54,545 bases of DNA from a virus. Shown piece after piece: positions 5,701 to 44,838 of this stretch (position 1 is the first letter of the stretch; the number at the start of each line of letters is the position of its first letter). The notes beneath the pieces were generated by a model that was given only the letters and a program-made list of their open reading frames with translations, made no database searches and was not told the DNA's origin. The position numbers and the translations under genes were made by a program. The stretch spans positions 1 to 54,545 of IMG/VR virus record IMGVR_UViG_3300019881_000003, one strand, 5' to 3'.

Positions 5701-6257
5701 CAGGCACCGCCCTTTGCGATTTGGCCGGTCCACGGCAGGTGCAGACCGTCGCCCTCACAGCGCGGCACCAGGTGGCCGTGCATGTGCTCCGTCTCCGACT
5801 GCGTCGCCGCCCGGCCGTCAGAATCGATGTAGTTCGACGACCCAAGCTCAAGCTCCGACTGCAGCTCGGCGGCCCGCACACGCACCAGCCCGGCGACCGC
5901 CCAGTCCTCCCGCGCGTTACGGACATGGGCGCGCGGAATCACCACCACATGCCCACCCACCGCCGGGGTCGGGCGCGGGGTGACCGCGACCGCGTCCGGC
6001 CACTCCCGGACCAGGACGCGGGTCACGCTGCCGGCGACAAGCATGCACAGGTGACACGGCACCTGCGCGGCCGGAACCTCGAAGCCCCCGCCGAGGTTCG
6101 AGTTGCGGAAGTCGTCGACGCCCTCGAACACGGTGGGCGCCCACAGGCCGTCGTCCGACACCCGCACCTGGCGGTCCGGCTTTGCGTCCGGGTCAACGCG
6201 GTAGTAGACGGCGTCACCAGGCCCGCGCCACTGGCGGAAAAACTGGAACTCACTCAT
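5700..6257 (-). CDS. HIT-family (histidine triad) protein
   Basis: 185 aa. The HxHxH triad is visible as HMHGHLVPR (about residues 158-166), followed by a Trp-containing end. A CxxC (PCHLCML, about residues 67-73), typical of zinc-binding HIT hydrolases, lies upstream, with VGGHVVVIPRAHV in between, matching the usual GH.LVIPK.H segment. HIT enzymes hydrolyse or transfer nucleotidyl groups. The N-terminal 60 residues are extra. In a phage a role in nucleotide or dinucleotide-signal metabolism is plausible; the substrate is unknown. Confidence 0.8.
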   Translation of the reverse strand: MSEFQFFRQWRGPGDAVYYRVDPDAKPDRQVRVSDDGLWAPTVFEGVDDFRNSNLGGGFEVPAAQVPCHLCMLVAGSVTRVLVREWPDAVAVTPRPTPAVGGHVVVIPRAHVRNAREDWAVAGLVRVRAAELQSELELGSSNYIDSDGRAATQSETEHMHGHLVPRCEGDGLHLPWTGQIAKGGA

Positions 6258-6709
6258 GTCGACGACCCCGCAGTCCTCGGCTCCACATTGCGGAGATGCG
6301 TCGAATGGCTACGGGCGGCGGCCAGGCGAGCCGACAGCAAGTTCACCGCCGGCAGCACCTCCGACAGCGCGGCCACCAGATCACGACCGGTCTCGGCGCC
6401 CATCCACGCGTCGTCGTCGGCAGCCCCGCGGTCATCGCGCAGCACACCTGCCGCCACCTGCCCGGCGATCGACCGCTCCAACTGGGCTAGCAGCTGCGGC
6501 AGGCGACCGGCCGCCTCGTGCAGGCAGGACAGGACCCTGTCCACGTCGCCCGCGTACGGAAGGGTGGCGCTGGCGTTGCCGGGTCCGGTCGCGTTGTTGA
6601 TGTACCGCAGCAGGCTGGGGACCGTCTCGGCAGCAGTGCTCACCGTCTCGCGGTCGTGGGGGCCGTCGTAAGGCCAGTGCTCGGCGAGGATCTCGGCAGG
6701 ATCAGGCAT
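6254..6709 (-). CDS. Hypothetical helical protein, 151 aa
   Basis: 151 aa, predominantly alpha-helical, no Cys-rich or membrane features apart from one Cys. Resembles small actinophage proteins found in early operons with many Leu/Ala heptads (LSCLHEAAGRLPQLLAQLERS). Family not recognised. ATGA overlap with the HIT gene. Confidence 0.65.
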   Translation of the reverse strand: MPDPAEILAEHWPYDGPHDRETVSTAAETVPSLLRYINNATGPGNASATLPYAGDVDRVLSCLHEAAGRLPQLLAQLERSIAGQVAAGVLRDDRGAADDDAWMGAETGRDLVAALSEVLPAVNLLSARLAAARSHSTHLRNVEPRTAGSST

Positions 6710-6730
6710 GAGTGTGTCCTTCCAGGACGG

Positions 6731-7225
6731 TCAGATGAGGGCGGTGCAGAGGGCCGCGACGAACAGCCAGGACACGTGGAATGACTGGTCCAAGGCGTAC
6801 GCGCCGGTCCCGAGCGACGGGTTGTCGTGGGGCACTGTCGCGCCGATCGTGCCGCCCGGGTCGGAGACCTCAGGTAGATCCGGACGCGGCATACCGAGCC
6901 AGTAGAAGTCGGCCTTACCAGCCAGCTTGGCAAGCCACCGCAGTGTGGTGCGGTGGTCCGCCCAGTAGTGCGTCGCACCGGACACGACCTGCCCGACCGC
7001 GACCCCGGCGAGCGACACCGGCAGATCCAGCAGCGGGGCGACAACAGCGAGGAGTACGAGCGCAGTCACCACGTAGGTGACGACGTGCGCAGCGCACGCG
7101 GCCCGGCCCGGCCACCCGGGGAGCCCTTTCGTGGCGGCCTGATGCCCGGTCTGCACCCAGTGGTCAGCGACCTGATGGGCGACCCACAACGTCACGAACA
7201 CGGCAGCGAACGCCGCGGCGGTCAT
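6731..7225 (-). CDS. DUF3307-like membrane protein
   Basis: 164 aa from ATG 7225. The start FVTLWVAHQVADHWVQTGHQ (about residues 8-27) fits the DUF3307 pattern of a membrane helix bearing AH.x.D..x.Q. Three or four hydrophobic helices follow, then a Pro-rich loop (about residues 115-145) and a last helix (SWLFVAALCTALI). DUF3307 proteins are small integral membrane proteins of unknown function found in hosts and phages. ATG overlaps the upstream stop (ATGA). Confidence 0.7.
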   Translation of the reverse strand: MTAAAFAAVFVTLWVAHQVADHWVQTGHQAATKGLPGWPGRAACAAHVVTYVVTALVLLAVVAPLLDLPVSLAGVAVGQVVSGATHYWADHRTTLRWLAKLAGKADFYWLGMPRPDLPEVSDPGGTIGATVPHDNPSLGTGAYALDQSFHVSWLFVAALCTALI

Positions 7226-8248: not shown

Positions 8249-8284
8249 CGTGTCCAACATATGCCAACACGTGGCCATTCGCAA
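8249..8284 (-). promoter_or_regulatory. Early promoter with paired GTTGG operator (left copy)
   Basis: On the minus strand: -35 TTGCGA (8284-8279), 17-nt spacer, -10 TATGTT (8261-8256). GTTGG direct repeats 10 bp apart (plus-strand CCAAC at 8254-8258 and 8264-8268) flank and overlap the -10. The same arrangement, including -35 and spacing, occurs at 15192-15226. Two operons sharing promoter plus repeat argue for co-repression. The rest of the 230-bp gap (8285-8447) shows no gene or convincing hairpin. Confidence 0.75.
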
Positions 8285-8447
8285 GACACCCGACGTGATC
8301 CTTTGCGTAGTGCCCGTGGGCTGGAGCGGCAGAACCGGCCCAAACGACCGGCCCCTGACGCCGCCTGAGGTCCAACGGGGGCGCGGTGGCGGTCGCTAGC
8401 CACGAGACGCCCCAGACGCTCTGAGAGCCGTACAGCGGCACGGATGG

Positions 8448-12400: not shown

Positions 12401-12858
12401 GTCGGCTCGCCGCTGTCGGGGAACGGGTCGAACACGGGCGGGATCGAAGTGACCTTCTTGTCGTGGTCGAACCTGGGCATGACGAGGACACGCGCCATGT
12501 TGCCGATGTAGGCGGCGAGCGGCTCACGGGGCTCGGAGAGTCCGATGCGGACGGAGCCGCAGCCGAGGTGTTTGGCGATCTTGTACCGGTCGGTGGCGGT
12601 GGCGACGAGTACGGGCTCGCCGTTGTGATGCCGGCGATGGCGACTTCGACGGCGTCGGTGGGCAGGAACACGGGCCTTGGGAGGTGGCCGTGTGCCCGGA
12701 GGTGGATCTGCGCGAGCATGGGTGTCGCCGTGCAGCAGGACACCCATCAGGCCGGGGTGATTGTACTCGTCGGCGGCCACGAGGGCGCCGCGGAGGACGG
12801 ATCGCAGCACCTCGGCGGGGGCGCTGATCGTGGCGACGGGGAGTTCGGTAGTGGTCAT
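12397..12858 (-). CDS. DnaN-like sliding-clamp fragment with an internal frame switch
   Basis: 153 aa as an open frame. Outer parts resemble the DNA polymerase beta clamp: VLRGALVAADEYNHPGLMGV near the start and VATATDRYKIAKHL (about residues 85-98) with the ATDRY signature. The middle (about 12613-12725) is Pro/Arg/His-rich with roughly half A/T third positions, whereas the next frame over the same bases reads LRAHGHLPRPVFLPTDAVEV with almost all G/C third positions. Coding bias therefore leaves the frame and returns, implying two compensating indels or a recoding event. ATG 12858 overlaps the RecT stop. Far shorter than a full clamp (about 370 aa). Confidence 0.6.
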   Translation of the reverse strand: MTTTELPVATISAPAEVLRSVLRGALVAADEYNHPGLMGVLLHGDTHARADPPPGTRPPPKARVPAHRRRRSRHRRHHNGEPVLVATATDRYKIAKHLGCGSVRIGLSEPREPLAAYIGNMARVLVMPRFDHDKKVTSIPPVFDPFPDSGEPT

Positions 12859-13742
12859 GACTTCTCCTCGGACTGCAGGTCGGCGGGAGCGTCGTTGTCG
12901 TGGGCGAGCTCACCGTCGAGGTCGGGGTGTTCGCCGTGCAGCATGCCGTCGGTGTCGGGGGACAGGTCCACCCGCACGGTCTCGTCAGCTTCGATCGCCG
13001 AGGCGATCTCGGTGGACTTGGGCATCCACTTCGCCAGCCGCAGGAACGTAGTTTTTACGGCCATGGCATCGAAGTCGTCGCGCCACGGGCCGACGAGCTT
13101 GCCTTCGCGGGTCTTGGCCATCGCGAACCGGTCGCGGTGCAACTCGACCTCGGCTTTGGACATGTGCCAGAACGCGTGCCCGCCCGACGTGTATTTGACG
13201 ATCGAGTAGTAGCCGACCGGCTCGCCGCGGTCGCCGTCGAGGCGCGGCTTGTGGACGAGGTTGTCGGCGAGGCCGTAGTCGACGTCGAACGTGTCGTTCT
13301 TGTGGACGGCGCGGCCGATGAGGGTGTCGATGAGTCCGGAGCGGTGGGCGAGTTCGCGGTAGCCCTGGTAGCCGATGATCAGCTGGGCGCGGTAGCCGCC
13401 GGTGCGGTTCTTGCCGTCGACGACGGTGGGCAGGTTCTTGTCCCAGAACGGCAGCAGCCACGCGTGGCCTAGGACGCCGGGTCGCAGCCCGAGTTGGGCG
13501 CAGGTCATGAGCCCGCCGAGGACGGAGGCGCGGTCGCAGGTGGCGAGGTTGCGGGTGGTGCGCAGCGCGGTGATCGCGTCCCGCACCAGCTGCGCGGCTT
13601 CCATCCCTCGGGGCATCGCCAGCTTGAACTGGTCTTGCATGGCCTGGATGGAGCCGGCGAGGGTGGGTGCGGGCCGGTCGATGTCGGTGCCGGGGACGGT
13701 GGTGTTGGCGGCGGCGACTCTGTCTGCCAGGTTGTTGCCCAT
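12855..13742 (-). CDS. recT: RecT-family single-strand annealing protein
   Basis: 295 aa. Diagnostic RecT features: early helical region (ALRTTRNLATCDRASVLGGL), LGLRPG...GHAWLLPFWDKN, the core LIIGYQGYRELAHRSGLID (about residues 119-137) and VGYYSIVKYTSGGHAFWHMS. The protein anneals complementary strands and works with a 5'-3' exonuclease, here the YqaJ-type gene just upstream (13759-14808), giving a Red-like recombination pair. Length is normal for RecT (about 270-320). The acidic C-terminal tail is typical. Confidence 0.92.
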   Translation of the reverse strand: MGNNLADRVAAANTTVPGTDIDRPAPTLAGSIQAMQDQFKLAMPRGMEAAQLVRDAITALRTTRNLATCDRASVLGGLMTCAQLGLRPGVLGHAWLLPFWDKNLPTVVDGKNRTGGYRAQLIIGYQGYRELAHRSGLIDTLIGRAVHKNDTFDVDYGLADNLVHKPRLDGDRGEPVGYYSIVKYTSGGHAFWHMSKAEVELHRDRFAMAKTREGKLVGPWRDDFDAMAVKTTFLRLAKWMPKSTEIASAIEADETVRVDLSPDTDGMLHGEHPDLDGELAHDNDAPADLQSEEKS

Positions 13743-13758: not shown

Positions 13759-14808
13759 TTACTGGAAGTGGAGGCGCCGTTGCCGGTACGCCTTGTAGAT
13801 GTCGGGCTGCTCGACGCGGAACGCGTCGACGTTGAACTCGTCGGTCTTGACGGGCACCGTGTACTGCTCGACGAGGTCGGGGTGGTCGGCGGTGAGCCGG
13901 CCCATGTTGAGGGCTTCGATGTGGGTCCAGGTGGCGACGACCCGTTCCCCGGCGACGAGTCGTTCCCCGGATCCGATGAGCTGCCGCGCCCGGTTCTTGA
14001 TCTGCTCGTGTTCGCGGCGCGCCGTCTTCTCGGCGTTCGCGGCGCGTGTCTTCGCGTCGGCCAACTGGTCCGCGGTCTCGTCGTTGACCTGTATCTCGAC
14101 GCCGGGCTCGGGTTGGGGGTAGCGGGCGTTGAGGATGTCGGTGCATGCGGCGGTGCCGTCGGCGTCGGGTTCGATGCGTGGCTGGACGTGCCGGGTCCAG
14201 AACCGGTCGCTGATGGCGACGAGCTCGCCGATCAGGGTGTTGTCGCGGTCGACGTGCCGGTAGGTGTTGCGTTGGCCGCCGATGAGGACGGCGACCCACC
14301 AGCCGGCCAGGCCGGTGACGGCCATGCCCCATTGGGCTTGTAGTTCGGCGTGGTCGGCGGTTTGGCCGTGTGCCCATTCGTGGGCTTGCCACATGGAGCA
14401 GGTTTTGCCTTCGTAGCCGTCGCCGTCGGAGCACATGCCGTCGGGGTTGGCGAGCATCCACGGCCACCGTGTTGAGCGGAGTGTCCCGGCGGGTGTGACG
14501 GTGAGGTGTTGGGCGCGGGCGAACCGGTCGCGGACGACGGGTTCGAGTAGGAGCCCCATTTCGGCGGCTTCGGATTGTTCGTCGACGAGGGGGAGTTGCC
14601 CGGTTTTGTCGAGCCACAGTTCGTAGCGGGATGACCAACGGTTGAGGCCGACGAGGGTGGAGATGTCGCTGCCGCCGATGCCGGTGCGGCGGGCGGCGAG
14701 CCACAGTTGCCGGTTGGCGCGGGCTACGCCGGGCGGCAGGATCTGCACGGCGTTAGCGGGGTCGATCCCAGCGACTGGTGTGCCTGTGTCGGTGATGGTG
14801 GGGGCCAT
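13759..14808 (-). CDS. YqaJ-type phage exonuclease
   Basis: 349 aa. Lambda-exonuclease/YqaJ fold signs: RTGIGGSDISTLVGLN (about residues 41-56, the GGSD motif), LLLEPVVRDRFA (Glu motif, about 86-97), WMLANPDGMCSD (Asp motif, about 116-127), YEGKTC (E-x-K, about 132-137) and HAELQAQWGMAVTG (about 153-166), which follows the usual WYxQxQ-type helix. The C-terminal 120 residues include a coiled-coil-like stretch (TRAANAEKTARREHEQIKN). Resects double-stranded DNA 5'-3' and hands single strands to RecT downstream. Confidence 0.92.
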   Translation of the reverse strand: MAPTITDTGTPVAGIDPANAVQILPPGVARANRQLWLAARRTGIGGSDISTLVGLNRWSSRYELWLDKTGQLPLVDEQSEAAEMGLLLEPVVRDRFARAQHLTVTPAGTLRSTRWPWMLANPDGMCSDGDGYEGKTCSMWQAHEWAHGQTADHAELQAQWGMAVTGLAGWWVAVLIGGQRNTYRHVDRDNTLIGELVAISDRFWTRHVQPRIEPDADGTAACTDILNARYPQPEPGVEIQVNDETADQLADAKTRAANAEKTARREHEQIKNRARQLIGSGERLVAGERVVATWTHIEALNMGRLTADHPDLVEQYTVPVKTDEFNVDAFRVEQPDIYKAYRQRRLHFQ

Positions 14809-14811
14809 CGG

Positions 14812-14907
14812 TCAGGCCGCTTCGGGTCGCTGGTGCCAGGCTCGGAGCGGCACGGCGTCGGTCTTGGCGGTGGCGTGGAGGGCGAGGCAGTCGCGGCAGT
14901 CGCACAT
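14812..14907 (-). CDS. 31-aa CxCxxC micro-protein
   Basis: ATG 14907 overlaps the preceding stop region (TGATCATG). Begins MCDCRDCLALHATAK: three closely spaced Cys plus His suggest metal binding. Stops 4 nt before the exonuclease start. Probably real by position, function unknown. Confidence 0.45.
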   Translation of the reverse strand: MCDCRDCLALHATAKTDAVPLRAWHQRPEAA

Positions 14908-14909
14908 GA

Positions 14910-15191
14910 TCACGCCGCACCGCTCTCGTCGTTGTCGCCCTCGTCGGTGGCGGTGTCGGCGTCACGGGGGGACGGCATGAGCACCGAGTAGGGGACACGC
15001 ATGGCGTCTGCCAACCGGCGGATGGAGTCCGTTGTTGGGTTGCGGCGACCGATTTCGTAGAGTCGCAGGGTCTCGGGGTTGAGCCCGGCGGCGTCCGCTA
15101 GCTTGGCGCGTGACCAGCCGTCGCGCTCGCGGAAGTGGATGAGTTCGAGCCAGCCGTGCGGCTCGGGGATGTCGGGTGTGGACGTCGGCAT
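14910..15191 (-). CDS. XRE-family regulator (Cro-like arm of the switch)
   Basis: 93 aa from ATG 15191, 6 nt after the -10 box, so probably leaderless. One XRE helix-turn-helix (about residues 12-70): RAKLADAAGLNPETLRLYEI with PYSVLMPSPR at its end, then an acidic tail. The HTH is about 68% identical (45 of 66 positions by eye) to the second HTH of the divergent gene at 15296. First gene of the recombination/replication operon and directly under the GTTGG operator. By position it is the Cro-like or early regulator. Confidence 0.85.
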   Translation of the reverse strand: MPTSTPDIPEPHGWLELIHFRERDGWSRAKLADAAGLNPETLRLYEIGRRNPTTDSIRRLADAMRVPYSVLMPSPRDADTATDEGDNDESGAA

Positions 15192-15226
15192 GTGCCCAAC
15201 ATAATCCAACGGCGCGCGCCTGGCAA
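15192..15226 (-). promoter_or_regulatory. Early promoter with paired GTTGG operator (right copy)
   Basis: Minus strand: -35 TTGCCA (15226-15221), 17-nt spacer, -10 TATGTT (15203-15198), then 6 nt to the ATG. GTTGG repeats 10 bp apart (plus-strand CCAAC 15196-15200 and 15206-15210) flank and overlap the -10, identical in layout to 8249-8284. It drives exonuclease, RecT, replication genes and methyltransferase leftward. Confidence 0.8.
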
Positions 15227-15282
15227 GACGGGTGTTGGTGTGGCGTGTCGCCGGGGGAGCCCCGCCGGTAACGTTCGTCTGT

Positions 15283-15295
15283 CACAATCCGATCC
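15283..15295 (+). promoter_or_regulatory. Divergent leaderless promoter for the double-HTH regulator
   Basis: CACAAT at 15283-15288 is followed by 7 nt and the ATG at 15296, the spacing seen at other leaderless starts here. No clear -35 is visible. The 57-bp gap to the facing -35 (15226) is GC-rich without a perfect GTTGG pair. Confidence 0.4.
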
Positions 15296-15961
15296 ATGGC
15301 GGAGCGGGACGTTGCGTGGCCTCTTGGTGAACTGATTCAGGAGGCCCGCAAAGCGCTGGGGTTGGGTGTCCGGCGCGCGGCGACCCGGGCCGGGATCGCC
15401 CCCACGACGTGGACCGCGATCGAGACCGGCAAGCGGATCAAAAAGGGCGGGGGGGCCCCGGAGCCCGCCGACCTGTCGAAACCGAGTGTGATCGCGGCGG
15501 CCCTGGTGGTCGGCGTCGACTACAAGCTGGCGCTGCAGCTGGCCGGGCTTGAGCCGCTGGGCGACGCAACCCAGCCGCCGGCGCCCGAACCCGAGCCCGT
15601 GGGCTGGCTCGAGTTGAAGACGATCCGCGAGCGTGACGGTTGGACTCGTGTGGCGCTCGCCGAGGCGGCCGGTCTGCATCCGGAGACGCTGCGCCTGTAT
15701 GAAAACGGGCAGCGGAACCCGGCGGCGGCGACGGTCCGCAAGATCGCGGACGTGCTGCGTGTGCCGTATTCGGTGTTGGAGCCTTCGCCGCGCGGGGCGG
15801 CGCCGGTGGAGGCGCCTGTCGTGCCGCCGCGGCGGCGTGCGCGCATGAGCGCTCCGAGCGCCGGGCGCCGGCACGCGGTGATGTCTCACGAGTCCAGGCA
15901 TGACGAAGAGGCCGCGACCCCGGTGGTCCCGGAGTCGCGGCGCGCGGAGAGCCGAACCTAG
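15296..15961 (+). CDS. Two-headed XRE regulator (probable lysogeny repressor)
   Basis: 221 aa. Residues about 10-80 form one HTH (ELIQEARKALGLGVRRAATR, IAPTTWTAIETGKRI) with an inserted GAPEPADL loop. Residues about 101-165 form a second, ordinary XRE HTH nearly duplicating the facing 93-aa protein (TRVALAEAAGLHPETLRLYE, VPYSVLEPSP). A basic disordered tail follows. No peptidase or dimerisation domain of the CI/LexA type is seen, so induction by RecA-type self-cleavage is unlikely. Divergent placement against the early operon makes it the best candidate immunity repressor. Its stop abuts the stop of the next gene. Confidence 0.85.
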   Translation: MAERDVAWPLGELIQEARKALGLGVRRAATRAGIAPTTWTAIETGKRIKKGGGAPEPADLSKPSVIAAALVVGVDYKLALQLAGLEPLGDATQPPAPEPEPVGWLELKTIRERDGWTRVALAEAAGLHPETLRLYENGQRNPAAATVRKIADVLRVPYSVLEPSPRGAAPVEAPVVPPRRRARMSAPSAGRRHAVMSHESRHDEEAATPVVPESRRAESRT

Positions 15962-16213
15962 TTATTTGCCGCGGTGGATGTCCCGCCACGCCTTGTTGAT
16001 CAACCCGAGTTCGAGGGTGGGGGAGATGCCGGTGACGGGGTAGGCCCTGCCATCATTGTGGTCGATCTTGCCGTCGCGGCGTAGCCGTTCGGTGCAGAAC
16101 ACGAGTACGGCGCCGGTGACGACTTCGTCGGGGTCGAGCCCGGCGTCGGCGGCGAGCCACCGGAGGAGCTGCGCGCGGAATGTGTCGATGGCGCTTCGGT
16201 CGGTGTCGGCCAT
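15962..16213 (-). CDS. Hypothetical protein, 83 aa
   Basis: ATG 16213 with an AGGGG Shine-Dalgarno 7 nt upstream; TAA stop directly abuts the regulator's TAG on the other strand. Small helical protein (SAIDTFRAQLLRWLAADAGL, FCTERLRRDGKIDH). Divergent from the DUF6879/DUF5753 cassette, and the shared intergenic region carries the bipartite operator. Unknown function. Confidence 0.65.
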   Translation of the reverse strand: MADTDRSAIDTFRAQLLRWLAADAGLDPDEVVTGAVLVFCTERLRRDGKIDHNDGRAYPVTGISPTLELGLINKAWRDIHRGK

Positions 16214-16403
16214 GGTCGTTCCCCTCAGTCGAAGCCCTGTGCGGCGTGGGCTCGGGTCGTGATCGACTGTTAGCGCCAAACGATCTAACGACGTAATTCG
16301 TCGGCGGTAACGTGCGCATCTGGGTGAACGGTCGCTAGACCTCTATCACCGAGAGTTTGCCCAGTGCGCAATCGGCGGGTTTCGCAGCGCGGGCTTGTGC
16401 GGT

Positions 16404-16664: not shown

Positions 16665-17183
16665 ATGGGCGCCACCATCGACATCGGACGGCTCGCCGAC
16701 CGTGCCGCCACCATGTTCCGGCTCGAAACCCTGCCTACCTACCTGGTGGAGGAGGAGGCCGCGGACTTCGCCGCGTGGCGTGCCGGCGACCGCATCCTCA
16801 CTTCCGAGGCGGATGCGTGGCTACAGAAGATCCGGGTCACCACGGCGGCTGGCGCTCGCTGGTCCCGCGTGAGAATCCTGGACTACCCGCTCACCGAGTA
16901 CAGCGAGTTCGAGCTGTACGGCTACCAGGCCAACCAGCGCGCAGGTGAACGCATCTATGTCGCCGACCGCGCCTGGTCCCCCGAGCTCGAGAGCCTGCGC
17001 GACGACTTCTGGATTGTCGACCACGTCGTCATCCGCATGGTGTACGACCCGGTTGGGCGGTTCGTGCGCGCCGAGGAGCCGCCCGACCCCGAGCGCTTCC
17101 ACGGAGTGCGCGCGGTCGTCCTGCGCCACTCCGTGCCGTTGGCCGAGTTTCTGGCCGACCGCGAGCCGCGGTTGATCGCATGA
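16665..17183 (+). CDS. DUF6879-family protein
   Basis: 172 aa. Recognised by RLETLPTYLVEEEAADFAAW near the start, the central RVRILDYPLTEYSEFELYGY and the end (FWIVDHVVIRMVYDPVGRF, AVPLAEFLADRE-like finish). DUF6879 genes sit next to DUF5753 HTH genes in many actinomycetes. They are thought to be toxin-like or signalling partners, but no activity is established to my knowledge. ATG 16665 has GGAGAGG upstream; its stop overlaps the next start (ATGA), so both are made together. Confidence 0.85.
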   Translation: MGATIDIGRLADRAATMFRLETLPTYLVEEEAADFAAWRAGDRILTSEADAWLQKIRVTTAAGARWSRVRILDYPLTEYSEFELYGYQANQRAGERIYVADRAWSPELESLRDDFWIVDHVVIRMVYDPVGRFVRAEEPPDPERFHGVRAVVLRHSVPLAEFLADREPRLIA

Positions 17184-18055
17184 CCGGGCCCGCACCGCAG
17201 ACCCCGGAGCGCCACGAGCTCGAGGTCGCGCTCCGGGGTCTGCGGGTCGATGCCGACCTGTCCACCACGAAGCTCGCGAAGCGGCTGGGCTGGTCGCAGT
17301 CCCGCGTGTCGCACATCGAGAACGGCCGCACCTTGCCGTCCCCCGACGACGTGGACCAGTGGGCGCAGGAGACCGGCGCGTCCCCCGACACCCGGAGGCA
17401 TCTCGTGGCCCTGGCAGAGCAGTCCCGCACCCAGTTCACGCTGTGGCGCCGCAGGTTCGCCGGGGCCAACGGCCGTCGCCGCGTCCAGAAGGAGATCGCG
17501 CAGCTCGAGGATGCCGCGTCGGTGATCCGCGTGTTCAGCGCCGACACCATGCCGGGCCTGGCCCAGACCCGCAAATACGCGGAGCGCATGTTCCTGCTGG
17601 GCCGACCGGATGTCACCGACGAGCCCGAGGATCTGGACGCGGTCGTGGATGCCCGCCTGGCTCGTCAGGGCGTGTTGGACTCCGGCAAGCAGATCCGGCT
17701 GTTGATGTCGGAGTTCGCCCTGCGCCGGCAGCTGGTGCCCGGCGGCGATCAGCTCGACCAGATCCACCGTCTGATCGGTCTGGTCGCCCGGCCGAACGTG
17801 GACGTGGGGGTGATTCCGTTCGCCGCCGATGAGGTCGCGCACCAGTATCACGCCTACGCGATCTTGGGCGACCTCGAAGCCGACGCGGGGGCCATCGTGA
17901 TGGCCGAGACGTTGACCCGCAGCTTGACGGTGCGGGACGCCGAGGAGGTCGCCCGGTATGTCGAGCATTTTGAGCGGCTGGATTCGACGGCTTTGCACGG
18001 CGACGACCTGCGCGCGTTTCTGCGGGAGGCTGCCGCGTCGGTGACCTGGTCTTAA
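17180..18055 (+). CDS. HTH regulator with DUF5753 (Scr1-type antitoxin-like)
   Basis: 291 aa. XRE HTH at residues about 12-66 (LSTTKLAKRLGWSQSRVSHI, ENGRTLPSPDDV), then the DUF5753 domain from about 95: FSADTMPGLAQTRKYAERMF, MSEFALRRQLVPGG..., ...VDVGVIPFAADEVAHQ, RSLTVRDAEEVARYVEHFERL. DUF5753 proteins are described as Scr1-family toxin-antitoxin-like regulators, usually chromosomal. Four-base ATGA overlap with DUF6879. The matching operators on both sides of the cassette suggest autoregulation. Confidence 0.88.
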   Translation: MTGPAPQTPERHELEVALRGLRVDADLSTTKLAKRLGWSQSRVSHIENGRTLPSPDDVDQWAQETGASPDTRRHLVALAEQSRTQFTLWRRRFAGANGRRRVQKEIAQLEDAASVIRVFSADTMPGLAQTRKYAERMFLLGRPDVTDEPEDLDAVVDARLARQGVLDSGKQIRLLMSEFALRRQLVPGGDQLDQIHRLIGLVARPNVDVGVIPFAADEVAHQYHAYAILGDLEADAGAIVMAETLTRSLTVRDAEEVARYVEHFERLDSTALHGDDLRAFLREAAASVTWS

Positions 18056-19236: not shown

Positions 19237-19604
19237 GGCCGGGCCTCCGTGCTGGTGTCCACCCCGAAGTCGAACACCGGGATGCCTGCCTTCCGAGCCA
19301 TCCGCGCGCACATGCCGGTCCCCGACGCCCACGACGTCGCGAACGCCAGACACACATCCGCGCCCAGGTCCACCATGTGCTGGTTGCGGTGACGCGGCGA
19401 CGGGAAGTCAGCGGCTGGGTACGGCTCGGGCTGGCACCCAGTCATGCGGGCGTAGCGGTCGGCCATCGTGTCCGCGCCCGGCGCCGCGCCGTGCACGATG
19501 ACGGTGCGGTCGTCATCGACGATGATCTCCCGGAACATGGCGAGCCGCAGCTTGCCCTGATCGGTCCAGGCGCGGGAGCCGGTGACCAGGATCCGCCGCG
19601 TCAC
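19233..19604 (-). CDS. SLOG-domain protein (DUF2493/YspA-like)
   Basis: 123 aa. Rossmann-like start RRILVTGSRAWTDQGKLRLA (residues 3-22), the PGADTMADRYAR segment (about 42-53) and HRNQHMV...CLAF motif identify the DUF2493 (YspA, cpYpsA-related SLOG) family, thought to bind nucleotides or nucleotide-derived ligands. GTG 19604 overlaps the integrase stop with GGAGG upstream, so it is co-expressed with integrase. Followed by a small two-helix membrane protein. Confidence 0.85.
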   Translation of the reverse strand: MTRRILVTGSRAWTDQGKLRLAMFREIIVDDDRTVIVHGAAPGADTMADRYARMTGCQPEPYPAADFPSPRHRNQHMVDLGADVCLAFATSWASGTGMCARMARKAGIPVFDFGVDTSTEARP

Positions 19605-20818
19605 GTCTCCTCCTGCTTCGGCCGGTGCGCGGCGTCGATGACGTCCAACCCGGTCGGGTTAGGCAGGCCGCGCGCCACATACACCTCACTCGATCGCACA
19701 CTCGAATGCCGTAGCTGGTCGGCGATCTGCCGCGCCGTCTGCCCTTCCTGCGCCAGCAGGGTGGCCACGGTGTGGCGTCCGACGTGGGTGGAGAACCCCT
19801 CATGCCCGATCCGCTTGCACATCCGTTGGATGGAGCGTTGCACGTCGGTGGGTCGCCGCCACCCCCCGCTGCTGGACGGGAACACGGGCTGGTCAGCCCC
19901 GACCCCGCCGGCTACCAGTGCGGGCGCCCGGTCGAGCAGCAGGGCGTGCAGGAAGCTGGGGAGTCCGACAACACCGGTGGACGCCACCGTCTTACCGTGG
20001 TGCCGGACAACGCCTTTGCCTTTGACGATCACTAGGTTGCCGTTGAACCACACCGAGCGGGGCTTCAGCTTCTCCTGCCGGCCGTTGTCGGGGTTGACCG
20101 CGCGGACGGGCTGGTCGGTGAGGTTGAGGTCGGACCAGCGCAGTCCGATGGCTTCGCCGAATCGGCAGCCGGTGCCGAACAGGACGCGCAGCAGGTCGGG
20201 GAGGTCGCTGGCTTTGGCTTGCGGGTCGGCGTCGACTTTGGCGAGGAATTCGAGGATCTGCTCGGCGTCGTAGGCGGGGGCGGCGCGCACGGTGCCGCCG
20301 CGGATGGGGCGGGCGGCGGTGGTGGGGTTGTGGGCGAGGAGCCCGTGTTCGATGGCGGTGTTCATGAGCCCGGAGATGCAGTGGCGGATGCCGCGGAGGG
20401 TGCCGGGGGCGATGCCGGGGTTGTGGGCGCGGACGGCTGCGAAGACGCCGTTGATGCGGACGGGGGTGACTTCGCGGACCAGCAGGTCGCCCATGTGTGG
20501 GAGGACGTGGTTGCGGATGCGGCTCTCGTAGCGGTCGTAGGTGGTGTCGGCTTGTTCGTCGCGGACGTGTCCGAGGTAGTGGGGGACGAGGTCGCGGACG
20601 TGGGTGTCGCCGTGGTTGAGGATGGCGGCGTCGGCGGTGCGTTCGGTGAGGTACGCCTCGAGGTTGCGGGTGGCTTTTGCCTTGGTGTCGCCGCTGCGTT
20701 GGATCTGCCGGGTCTTGCCGTCGTAGTCGCGGATGAGGGTGGTGGCCTTCCATCGGCCGTCATTGTGTGGGTAGTGGCGGATCTTCCCCCAGCTACCGAG
20801 GGCCAGTCGCCCAGGCAT
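19601..20818 (-). CDS. int: Tyrosine integrase
   Basis: 405 aa. Arm-binding and SAM-like N-terminal domain, then the catalytic domain with R219 (FGTGCRFGEAIGL), K near 267-269 (VKGKG), H345-x2-R348 (THVGRHT), H371 (LRHSS) and nucleophile Y380 (SSEVYV). All residues of a working phage integrase are present and the length is typical for actinophages. It mediates site-specific recombination between attP and attB. No tRNA 3' end or obvious attP core is recognisable next to it. TGATG overlap with the upstream gene. Confidence 0.95.
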   Translation of the reverse strand: MPGRLALGSWGKIRHYPHNDGRWKATTLIRDYDGKTRQIQRSGDTKAKATRNLEAYLTERTADAAILNHGDTHVRDLVPHYLGHVRDEQADTTYDRYESRIRNHVLPHMGDLLVREVTPVRINGVFAAVRAHNPGIAPGTLRGIRHCISGLMNTAIEHGLLAHNPTTAARPIRGGTVRAAPAYDAEQILEFLAKVDADPQAKASDLPDLLRVLFGTGCRFGEAIGLRWSDLNLTDQPVRAVNPDNGRQEKLKPRSVWFNGNLVIVKGKGVVRHHGKTVASTGVVGLPSFLHALLLDRAPALVAGGVGADQPVFPSSSGGWRRPTDVQRSIQRMCKRIGHEGFSTHVGRHTVATLLAQEGQTARQIADQLRHSSVRSSEVYVARGLPNPTGLDVIDAAHRPKQEET

Positions 20819-21600: not shown

Positions 21601-21639
21601 TGTAGACACGTCTACATTGTGAGTGTAGAGTGGTCTACA
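21601..21639 (+). promoter_or_regulatory. Leaderless promoter with tandem TGTAGA-N4-TCTACA operators (locus 1)
   Basis: Operator 1 TGTAGA-CACG-TCTACA at 21601-21616 contains the -35 TAGACA (21603-21608). After a 17-nt spacer, the -10 TAGAGT (21626-21631) lies in operator 2 TGTAGA-GTGG-TCTACA at 21624-21639. The final A of operator 2 is the A of the ATG. Copies at 41244 and 44441 have the same 23-bp spacing. Binding to either copy would block transcription. Nearby upstream, GTACATGTAC (21575-21584) is another palindrome. Confidence 0.85.
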
Positions 21640-22001
21640 TGAACCGCAACCAGCTGCCGCAGGCCGTGATCGACGAGGCTTGGTCGGAGTTCGTCTACCC
21701 GCGCGCCGCCGTCGGCGACCTCGCCCGCCCAGCCCAGATGGGCGGGTTCACCCGGGCCATGCGCGTCGTCGCCCAGTGGGCCGACCGGCACGTGGCCGCC
21801 GAACTGGAAGCACTTGCCGTCGAGATGGACGATCGGCCCGGAAACCTGCCGGTCACGGCTGAGGACGTCCGCGCCCGCGCCGCGCAGCTTCGAGGTGAAG
21901 ACACCTGGTGCAACTGCCAGGCCGTTCGCGGCACGGCGAACTACCCCGGCCCGTGGCACCCGAAGGGCGACCCGACCTGCGTCTCGGCGAGCGCCCGGTG
22001 A
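21639..22001 (+). CDS. First gene of the TGTAGA-controlled accessory operon
   Basis: 120 aa from ATG 21639, which is inside operator 2 (leaderless). Helical first half (GGFTRAMRVVAQWADRHVAAELEALA) and a short Cys/His end (TWCNCQAVRGTANYPGPWHP...CVSA). This C-x-C...H...C pattern is seen in several actinophage moron proteins, but the family function is unknown. Overlaps the next start (GTGA). Confidence 0.75.
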   Translation: MNRNQLPQAVIDEAWSEFVYPRAAVGDLARPAQMGGFTRAMRVVAQWADRHVAAELEALAVEMDDRPGNLPVTAEDVRARAAQLRGEDTWCNCQAVRGTANYPGPWHPKGDPTCVSASAR

Positions 22002-24179: not shown

Positions 24180-24431
24180 ATGAAGCGCGGCATTCTTGTG
24201 GCGGCCGTCGCCGTCGCAGCGTTCGGGTTCGCTGGTGCCGGTACCGCGTCGGCGACTGGCGACATGACCCACAACGACTTCCCCGGCATGACGCACAACG
24301 CGTATCCCGGCATGACGCACAACGACTACCCGGGTATGACGCACAACAGCATCCCGGGCATGACGCACAACGAGTACTCGGGTGCCGCGGCTGGCCAGGC
24401 TGGGGCGGCTGTCTTCGCCCTCGCCGCCTGA
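24180..24431 (+). CDS. Secreted peptide with five MTHN repeats
   Basis: 83 aa. N-terminal signal peptide (MKRGILVAAVAVAAF core, AxA site near residue 25), then five consecutive 8-residue units: MTHNDFPG, MTHNAYPG, MTHNDYPG, MTHNSIPG, MTHNEYSG, and a short hydrophobic tail (AGQAGAAVFALAA). No Cys, no known bacteriocin or lanthipeptide signature. Regular Met/His/Asn suggest metal binding or a repeated ligand; tail and repeats could also assemble in the envelope. Single gene with its own leader, strong Shine-Dalgarno (GGGAGG, 8-nt spacing) and a strong terminator. I know of no named family. Confidence 0.85.
   Translation: MKRGILVAAVAVAAFGFAGAGTASATGDMTHNDFPGMTHNAYPGMTHNDYPGMTHNSIPGMTHNEYSGAAAGQAGAAVFALAA
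24264..24383 (+). repeat. Five tandem 24-bp repeats (MTHNxxPG)
   Basis: Units at 24264, 24288, 24312, 24336 and 24360, each starting ATGACSCACAAC. The first 12 bases are nearly invariant, while the codons for residues 5-6 vary, indicating selection on the MTHN motif and turn rather than a recent duplication only. Confidence 0.9.
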
Positions 24432-24917: not shown

Positions 24918-25355
24918 CTACCGCGCGCTCTGGGACGCGGCGATGTACCGGTCGGTGACGTGCTTGGGGATGCGTCCGCGCGGCTTGAGTTCGATGCGCT
25001 GGCTTTCGGCCCAGGCCCGGACGCTGGCGGCGTCGGGGCGCAGGGAGGTGCGTTTCGCCCTGCCGGTGGTGGGTTCGGAGAACTGCGGTAGCGGCGCCGG
25101 GGGCTTGCCGCGCCCCCGCTTGGGGCGCTGCTGGCCAGCCTCGATGTTGGCGGCGAGGAGTTTCAGGTTGGGCCGCGGGCCGGCGACGTGCCGGGCTTCG
25201 AGGATGTAGGGGGCGAGGGCTTCGCGGAGCCGGGCGGCGTGGTTGTCGTTGAGGTCGATTTCGAGTGGCTGCCCGTCGAGTGAGAAGATCACGGTTTGGT
25301 CGGCGGGTCCGCCGTCGATGTCGTCGACGAGGGCGGTGATCACGTTCTGCGCCAT
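24918..25355 (-). CDS. lsr2: Lsr2-like nucleoid-associated protein
   Basis: 145 aa from ATG 25355. N-terminal dimerisation domain MAQNVITALVDDIDGG (residues 1-16) and TVIFSLDGQPLEIDLNDNHA (about 21-40) match Lsr2. The C-terminal DNA-binding domain carries ASVRAWAESQRIELKPRGRI (about 111-130), with the RGR hook that inserts in the minor groove of A/T-rich DNA. A basic linker of about 40 residues separates them, longer than in host Lsr2 (112 aa). Host Lsr2 silences foreign A/T-rich DNA. A phage copy may compete with or imitate it. Terminated by the 24851 hairpin. Confidence 0.92.
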   Translation of the reverse strand: MAQNVITALVDDIDGGPADQTVIFSLDGQPLEIDLNDNHAARLREALAPYILEARHVAGPRPNLKLLAANIEAGQQRPKRGRGKPPAPLPQFSEPTTGRAKRTSLRPDAASVRAWAESQRIELKPRGRIPKHVTDRYIAASQSAR

Positions 25356-41243: not shown

Positions 41244-41282
41244 TGTAGACGTGTCTACATCTGGCGTGTAGAGTGGTCTACA
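41244..41282 (+). promoter_or_regulatory. Leaderless promoter with tandem TGTAGA operators (locus 2)
   Basis: TGTAGA-CGTG-TCTACA (41244-41259) and TGTAGA-GTGG-TCTACA (41267-41282), 23 bp apart. -35 TAGACG (41246-41251), 17-nt spacer, -10 TAGAGT (41269-41274), ATG at 41282 using the last operator base. Nearly base-for-base the same as loci 1 and 3. Confidence 0.88.
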
Positions 41283-41542
41283 TGACGAGGTCGACGATCT
41301 GCGAAGGTGACTGGTGGTACAGCAAGCCGGTTTGGTTCGGCACGTTCACCGTCCGCAACGCCGTCACCGGCGAGTCCTACGACACCGGCGCCTGCGAGCT
41401 GGTCGACGCCCGCAGCTTCGTCGCCGCGCTCGCGCCAGCCGAGCAGGTGTCGGTCGTGGCGGCCACGTACACGATCGCCTCGGGCCCCCAGCGTTCCCGC
41501 GGCGGGCACCAGCGTTTCCCGGGCGCCAACCACTTCGAATGA
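41282..41542 (+). CDS. Plus-strand moron 1 of locus 2, 86 aa
   Basis: 86 aa from ATG 41282, leaderless. WWYSKPVWFGTFTVRNAVTG and a beta-rich remainder; not recognised. Coupled to the second gene by a short gap with GAGGAGA. It lies between tail tube and chaperone genes on the opposite strand, so must be expressed separately from late genes. Confidence 0.75.
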   Translation: MTRSTICEGDWWYSKPVWFGTFTVRNAVTGESYDTGACELVDARSFVAALAPAEQVSVVAATYTIASGPQRSRGGHQRFPGANHFE

Positions 41543-44440: not shown

Positions 44441-44479
44441 TGTAGACGTGTCTACATTGGGCGTGTAGAGTGGTCTACA
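44441..44479 (+). promoter_or_regulatory. Leaderless promoter with tandem TGTAGA operators (locus 3)
   Basis: TGTAGA-CGTG-TCTACA (44441-44456) and TGTAGA-GTGG-TCTACA (44464-44479), spacing 23 bp. -35 TAGACG (44443-44448), -10 TAGAGT (44466-44471), ATG 44479. Same 41-bp organisation as loci 1 and 2. Confidence 0.88.
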
Positions 44480-44838
44480 TGATGATGACCACAGTCGAAC
44501 TGGCCGAGATGCTCACGACCGCTGCCGACCGCATCCGCGACCTCGCGGCAGGCACGTCCGCCGCGCCGTGGGCGGAGCCCTACTACGACGACCACCCGGC
44601 CGAACAAGGCTGGTGGGTCCTCAACGGCCGCGAGGGCATGCGACAGCACGCCGTGTGCTCGACGTTCGCCTTGAACAAGCAGGACGAAGCCGACGCCCGA
44701 TGGATCGCCGCCCTGTCCCCGGCGGTGGCCCCGATGATCGAGGCGTGGCTGCGCGAAGCCGCCGAGATGTGCGGCGAGTGGGAAGACCAGATGACCGAGT
44801 CGGCCATCGCCCTGGCCAAGGTGCTGCTCACGCGGTGA
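44479..44838 (+). CDS. Plus-strand moron of locus 3, 119 aa
   Basis: 119 aa from ATG 44479 (leaderless; two further in-frame ATGs follow at once). Helical VELAEMLTTAADRIRDLAAG, then NKQDEADARWIAALSPAVAP-MIEAWL, a motif shared with Ea22/ead-like phage accessory proteins (DAR.IAA..PA...AL...L). Function unknown. Encoded opposite to the capsid connector genes. Confidence 0.75.
   Translation: MMMTTVELAEMLTTAADRIRDLAAGTSAAPWAEPYYDDHPAEQGWWVLNGREGMRQHAVCSTFALNKQDEADARWIAALSPAVAPMIEAWLREAAEMCGEWEDQMTESAIALAKVLLTR

Follow-up and report, generated by a model that had tools for sequence, protein, structure and literature searches.

Repressor and Cro are textbook opponents in phage genetics, and the locus analyzed here raises the question of whether a pair of divergent genes whose products share a helix-turn-helix (HTH) forms a switch of this known type or one of a new class. 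The pair lies in a 54,545-nucleotide stretch of DNA (the window), an IMG/VR virus record of an uncultivated phage. The tyrosine integrase encoded in the window indicates that the phage is temperate, and its host is probably an actinobacterium, since the relatives of the proteins of the window were found mostly in phages of actinobacteria. The two genes, which we call L and R after the direction in which they are read, are open, divergent, and coding-like, and L opens a leftward early block that contains RecE, RecT, and replication genes (Table 1).

A preliminary description of this DNA had noted an HTH shared by the two proteins at about 45 of 66 positions, a different HTH at the N-terminus of R, and no CI-type cleavage domain. 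These three points were borne out. The identity between L and residues 103–168 of R was reproduced exactly (45/66 residues; BLASTP E about 1e-33), Pfam placed HTH_19/HTH_31 at residues 11–57 and HTH_3/HTH_31 at residues 106–159 of R, and neither Peptidase_S24 (CI/LexA cleavage) nor Peptidase_M78 was found in a six-frame Pfam search of the whole record.

Table 1. Features of the divergent locus and its surroundings. Positions are those of the window; R_N and R_C denote the N-terminal and the C-terminal HTH domains of R.
Feature	Positions	Strand	Evidence
L, Cro-type protein of 93 aa, opening the leftward early operon (then RecE, RecT)	14910..15191	(-)	Cro profile
R, 221-aa repressor-Cro fusion	15296..15961	(+)	HTH comparison, Pfam, BLASTP, profiles
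R residues 1-88, repressor-type HTH domain (R_N)	15296..15559	(+)	repressor profile; match to Jace gp28; PHROG 2838 weakly; AlphaFold pLDDT about 95
R residues 89-103, Pro-rich linker (GDATQPPAPEPEPVG)	15560..15604	(+)	sequence; low pLDDT
R residues 104-165, Cro-type HTH, sister of L (R_C)	15605..15790	(+)	Cro profile; identity with L; tree
R residues 166-221, tail, probably disordered	15791..15958	(+)	no Pfam match beyond the HTHs; model without helix, low confidence
Candidate operator and promoter of L, GTCTTGC-N12-GTTGG-N2-TATGTTGG	15196..15229	(-)	-35 TTGCCA 15226-15221; -10 TATGTT 15203-15198; start 15191 likely leaderless
Second copy of the candidate operator/promoter, before the next leftward gene block (8217 and below)	8254..8287	(-)	same motif; TTGCGA/TATGTT
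RecE-like exonuclease, downstream of L	13759..14808	(-)	PHROG 434, 1e-80
RecT-like annealing protein	12855..13742	(-)	PHROG 148, 1e-75
HTH-DUF5753 regulator, rival candidate for the lysogeny regulator	17180..18055	(+)	Pfam DUF5753 7e-34
Tyrosine integrase	19601..20818	(-)	PHROG 1, 2e-50; Pfam Phage_integrase

The origin of the two halves of R was analyzed with profiles built from IMG/VR relatives, without R or L. R_N reached 42.5 bits as a repressor and near zero as a Cro protein, and the Cro profile gave 61.5 bits for R_C and 51 bits for L, while generic or unrelated XRE proteins did not exceed about 10 bits with the repressor profile and about 30 bits with the Cro profile. In a maximum-likelihood tree, R_C joined L (98/98), and R_N fell within the clade of the F1 and Jace repressors (98/96). 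The first 98 residues of R matched the immunity repressor gp28 of Rhodococcus phage Jace (37.5%), and the Cro proteins of F1 mycobacteriophages and of TinyDot were matched in tblastn by residues 104–162 of R only; L itself is 41–44% identical to these Cro proteins. For the F1 phage Madiba, the repressor gp41 aligned with residues 8–112 of R (30% over 113 aa), and the Cro protein gp42 showed 46% identity to residues 104–162 of R and 43% to L. The same split into repressor and Cro was observed in TinyDot, Squiddly, Taj, and the prophage prophiGD54-1, the last of which had a direct match to R on the Cro side only. An alignment of repressors only was too diverse for scanning, and mixed repressor and Cro alignments, in which N-terminal domains were misaligned onto R_C, were left out of the results.

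These comparisons show that R_N belongs to the repressor family of cluster F1 mycobacteriophages and phage Jace, and that the HTH shared by R_C and L is that of the facing Cro proteins. The proposal that the locus differs from CI/Cro was thus not upheld, since one half of R is of the repressor family and the other half, like L, of the Cro family, and the gene order is that of Jace. The HTH duplication proposed in the preliminary description agrees with the sister position of R_C and L, but R can be called a paralogue of L for its C-terminal half only, and not as a whole, its N-terminal half being of the repressor type.

An AlphaFold model computed from a 13-row alignment supports two XRE folds in R, the second half having been modelled without alignment depth: the N-terminal domain folds well, the C-terminal domain has no support from the alignment, and the arrangement of the arms is undefined. 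Folding of R from its single sequence was uninformative (pLDDT 45). A Foldseek search returned XRE-fold matches only, and several viral predicted proteins aligned across both domains; there was also a weak fecal-phage match (E 0.5). As tandem XRE proteins exist in phages, the double-HTH layout by itself is not novel. The search for proteins of the same layout, suggested beforehand, succeeded for tandem XRE proteins but returned no second repressor–Cro fusion from IMG/VR, phage, or plasmid records, and the fusion is known from one contig.

Among 80 IMG/VR virus loci with a Cro relative, a repressor of the R_N family was encoded on the opposite strand in 76, and both domains were found in one ORF in none. 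These loci include many near-identical F1 phages; at 90% similarity, they reduce to 12 distinct Cro domains and 15 distinct repressor domains. The 15 repressors differ greatly in their tails, which in no case contain a Cro domain (best score 8.7 bits), so that R looks like a usual repressor in which an old, conserved Cro copy has taken the place of the variable, swappable tail. Given that the genes are divergent, this copy would have had to be inverted. No close relatives emerged from IMG/VR when L, or an alignment of L and R, served as the query; a scan of a genome collection with R detected just a generic XRE protein in a Mediterraneibacter MAG, and in plasmid records R was unmatched and L matched generic HTH proteins only. 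Literature searches with the terms used returned no paper on repressor–Cro fusions or on repressors with tandem XRE domains. At one of the IMG/VR loci (L013, 2549–3510), a Cro relative with 43% identity to R_C stands opposite an unrelated 201-aa HTH protein, from which it appears that Cro and repressor can be exchanged independently.

L and R_C are identical at 131 of 198 DNA positions, and their third codon positions are alike in just 25 of 66 codons. The duplication is thus old and the protein conserved under selection, as the silent positions are near saturation while the protein sequence was kept. These data also bear on whether the fusion arose through misassembly or is a decayed gene of a defective phage, as might be supposed from a single contig for which no relative with the fusion was found. 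We give this explanation hardly any credit: the frame is open over both domains, the coding statistics are normal, and the two Cro copies differ at one third of their DNA positions, which argues against a misassembled repeat.

A promoter scan of positions 14900–16400 found one promoter-like site, at L, and none for R. Both this candidate promoter and its second copy have a spacer of 17 bp between the −35 and −10 sequences. The two DNA stretches that had been paired in the preliminary description (15192–15226 and 8249–8284) do belong together: they have in common CCAACATANNCCAAC, a part of the candidate operator motif of Table 1, which occurs in exactly two copies in the 54.5 kb, at 8254 and 15196, and three times when two mismatches are allowed. 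At both leftward promoters, GTTGG-N5-GTTGG forms two half-sites that are 10 bp apart and flank the −10 sequence. On the R side, the intergenic region holds a single GTTGG (15234–15238). In several relatives, by contrast, the repressor side also carries repeats. No IMG/VR contig other than the window contained the exact operator pattern.

The spacing of 10 bp recurs in the relatives. When 11 lytic promoter regions were compared (nine from relatives and the two of the window), 25 exact 5-mer repeats were counted at lag 10 versus at most six at any other lag, and a lag-10 repeat was present in eight of the 11 regions versus 0.9 expected in shuffles. Examples are GTTCGCACTTGTTCGCA (locus L015) and CTACGCACATCTACGCA (L077). 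The repeat flanks the −10 sequence in the window and lies in the −35/−10 spacer in most relatives. Direct repeats spaced by 10 bp were observed in the lytic promoters of L015, L016, L077, L081, L083, L092, and L008, which are F1-like and Jace-like phages. These sequences suggest that direct repeats exactly 10 bp apart are a family-wide operator style, and such repeats within the lytic promoter may be an under-described operator style across F1-like actinophages; for the F1/Jace-type repressor family, they were not found in the literature searches made.

Two motif copies and two arms could also mean that R bridges the distant operators at 8254 and 15196, 7 kb apart, with one arm on each, thereby looping the early region, a bridging role having been considered in the preliminary description. 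We regard this as very improbable. The arms belong to different families, whereas the two sites are near-identical, so that two identical arms, as in any oligomer, would suffice for looping; moreover, the 10-bp repeat within each site offers a nearer partner. It would be geometrically simpler for R to clamp the two half-sites of a single operator, 10 bp apart, than to bridge two sites, and both arms of R may touch one operator.

The locus is thus, in our judgment, probably a lysis–lysogeny switch built on the F1/Jace-type repressor/Cro plan, with L as Cro and R as an immunity repressor that has a Cro HTH as its tail, both acting on the same half-sites. In a lysogen, R would keep both leftward promoters off. 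In the lytic cycle, L would be produced first, from its own promoter, occupy the same half-sites and, by the logic of lambda, limit its own operon and counter R. A common half-site, GTTGG, would be expected for R_C and L because they share the core of the recognition helix, PETLRLYE. The least certain step is the contribution of the second arm, through which a single chain may gain an additional hold on head-to-tail half-sites: either one chain spans both half-sites, or the repressor arm lands next to them. R_N may read the adjacent half-site, the GTCTTGC element, or another sequence. That R is a covalent repressor–Cro hybrid, placing two arms of different origin on the half-sites of one operator and leaving Cro to compete with a copy of itself, is a tentative reading that we hold possible but doubtful. 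If true, such a hybrid would represent a new way for a temperate phage to change its immunity type, through capture of the DNA-binding domain of its antagonist.

XRE domains often dimerise, and R might accordingly be a repressor in which only one arm reads DNA and the Cro-type half mainly pairs with L or another R. The tail helix motif (D/E)(D/E)xLLxE(V/I)xRR, present in five of the 15 distinct relatives, is missing from R, and the Cro-type domain could fill that role. However, the recognition helix of R_C is nearly identical to that of L despite the saturated third codon positions, which suggests that DNA reading is under selection, and we consider pairing as the main function of this half unlikely.

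Compared with known systems, the locus is a repressor/Cro switch of known type with a new twist, so far known from a single sequence, and does not define a new class. In the F1 switch (Cheoctovirus; Madiba gp41/gp42), a repressor and a Cro protein homologous to R_N and to R_C/L, respectively, are likewise divergent, and several F1 phages carry repeats with the same 10-bp spacing at the Cro promoter; in contrast to the window, the two proteins are separate and have one HTH each, the tail of the repressor is unrelated, and the half-sites are TTCGCA/TTTGCA-like instead of GTTGG. Immunity is attributed to the F1 repressors by annotation, the clusters listed in 2022 as experimentally validated being A, G, K, I, N, P, and Q, without F (PMC9283540). 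Jace shares with the window the order of repressor, facing regulator, RecE, and RecT as well as the 10-bp repeats, but its gp28 has one HTH in 131 aa, and the facing gp29 is an excisionase-type regulator and not an XRE Cro protein. F1/Jace-type repressors carry a variable tail without a Cro domain, and R departs from them in this respect. In lambda, CI and Cro are also divergent and share operators (candidate ones in the window), but they are unfused, the operators are palindromic, and CI has a cleavable S24 domain of a kind absent from the record. Switches with integration-dependent immunity (BPs/Brujita type) have the integrase gene directly beside the repressor gene and attP within the latter; the integrase gene of the window is separated from R by 3.6 kb that include other genes.

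A repressor with two DNA-binding domains has a precedent in actinophages. The repressor of TipsytheTRex is a monomer whose two linked DNA-binding domains are both needed at an asymmetric site (PMC9283540). Like R, these cluster A (L5/TipsytheTRex) repressors combine two DNA-binding domains and a linker in one chain, and by analogy the two-arm mode of R is plausible, without implying kinship, of which no sign was found among PDB sequence matches. Cluster A genomes have more than twenty stoperator/operator copies, whereas the window has two copies of the motif and no stoperator network. Direct repeats one helical turn apart at early promoters are bound by Apl/Cox proteins (PMC7498355); unlike R and L, Apl of phage 186 and Cox of P2 are excisionase-type proteins and not XRE repressors. 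A repressor that has absorbed the DNA-reading domain of Cro would show how new immunity specificities may arise, since repressor and Cro, with the same reading head in both, could shift to a new half-site together.

The neighbourhood holds another candidate for the regulator of lysogeny. A DUF6879 protein and then the HTH-DUF5753 regulator are encoded at 16665–18055, and it could be argued that the latter, or another gene, keeps lysogeny and that R and L are an accessory pair. The HTH-DUF5753 protein is a complete regulator with an adjoining DUF6879 partner and lies closer to the integrase, which is 3.6 kb away from R with other genes intervening. On the other hand, its phage relatives are few (seven records, all Streptomyces phages, 27–31%), and R sits, by position and homology, where relatives keep their immunity repressor, facing Cro and RecE/RecT. 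We therefore find an accessory role for R and L quite unlikely and retain R as the candidate immunity repressor.

Exchange around the switch was observed elsewhere: an 84-kb contig (L004) encodes at 5998–7041 a relative of the RecE-like protein with 55% identity, and its immunity region is unrelated to that of the window, which points to a mosaic immunity region. Further along the window, a short ORF at 24180–24431 probably encodes a signal peptide and contains MTHN-x-x-PG repeats in tandem, and a phage-encoded Lsr2-like nucleoid protein lies at 24918–25355. Finally, three rightward, likely leaderless short genes have in common a paired palindrome (21601–21641, 41244–41284, and 44441–44481), in which TGTAGAC-NN-GTCTACA is followed 23 bp on by TGTAGAGTGGTCTACATG, whose end is the start codon. 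The window contains six near-palindromes in total, with seven matches at up to three mismatches versus 0.7 expected, and from their sequences these genes appear to form a small regulon under an operator of their own.
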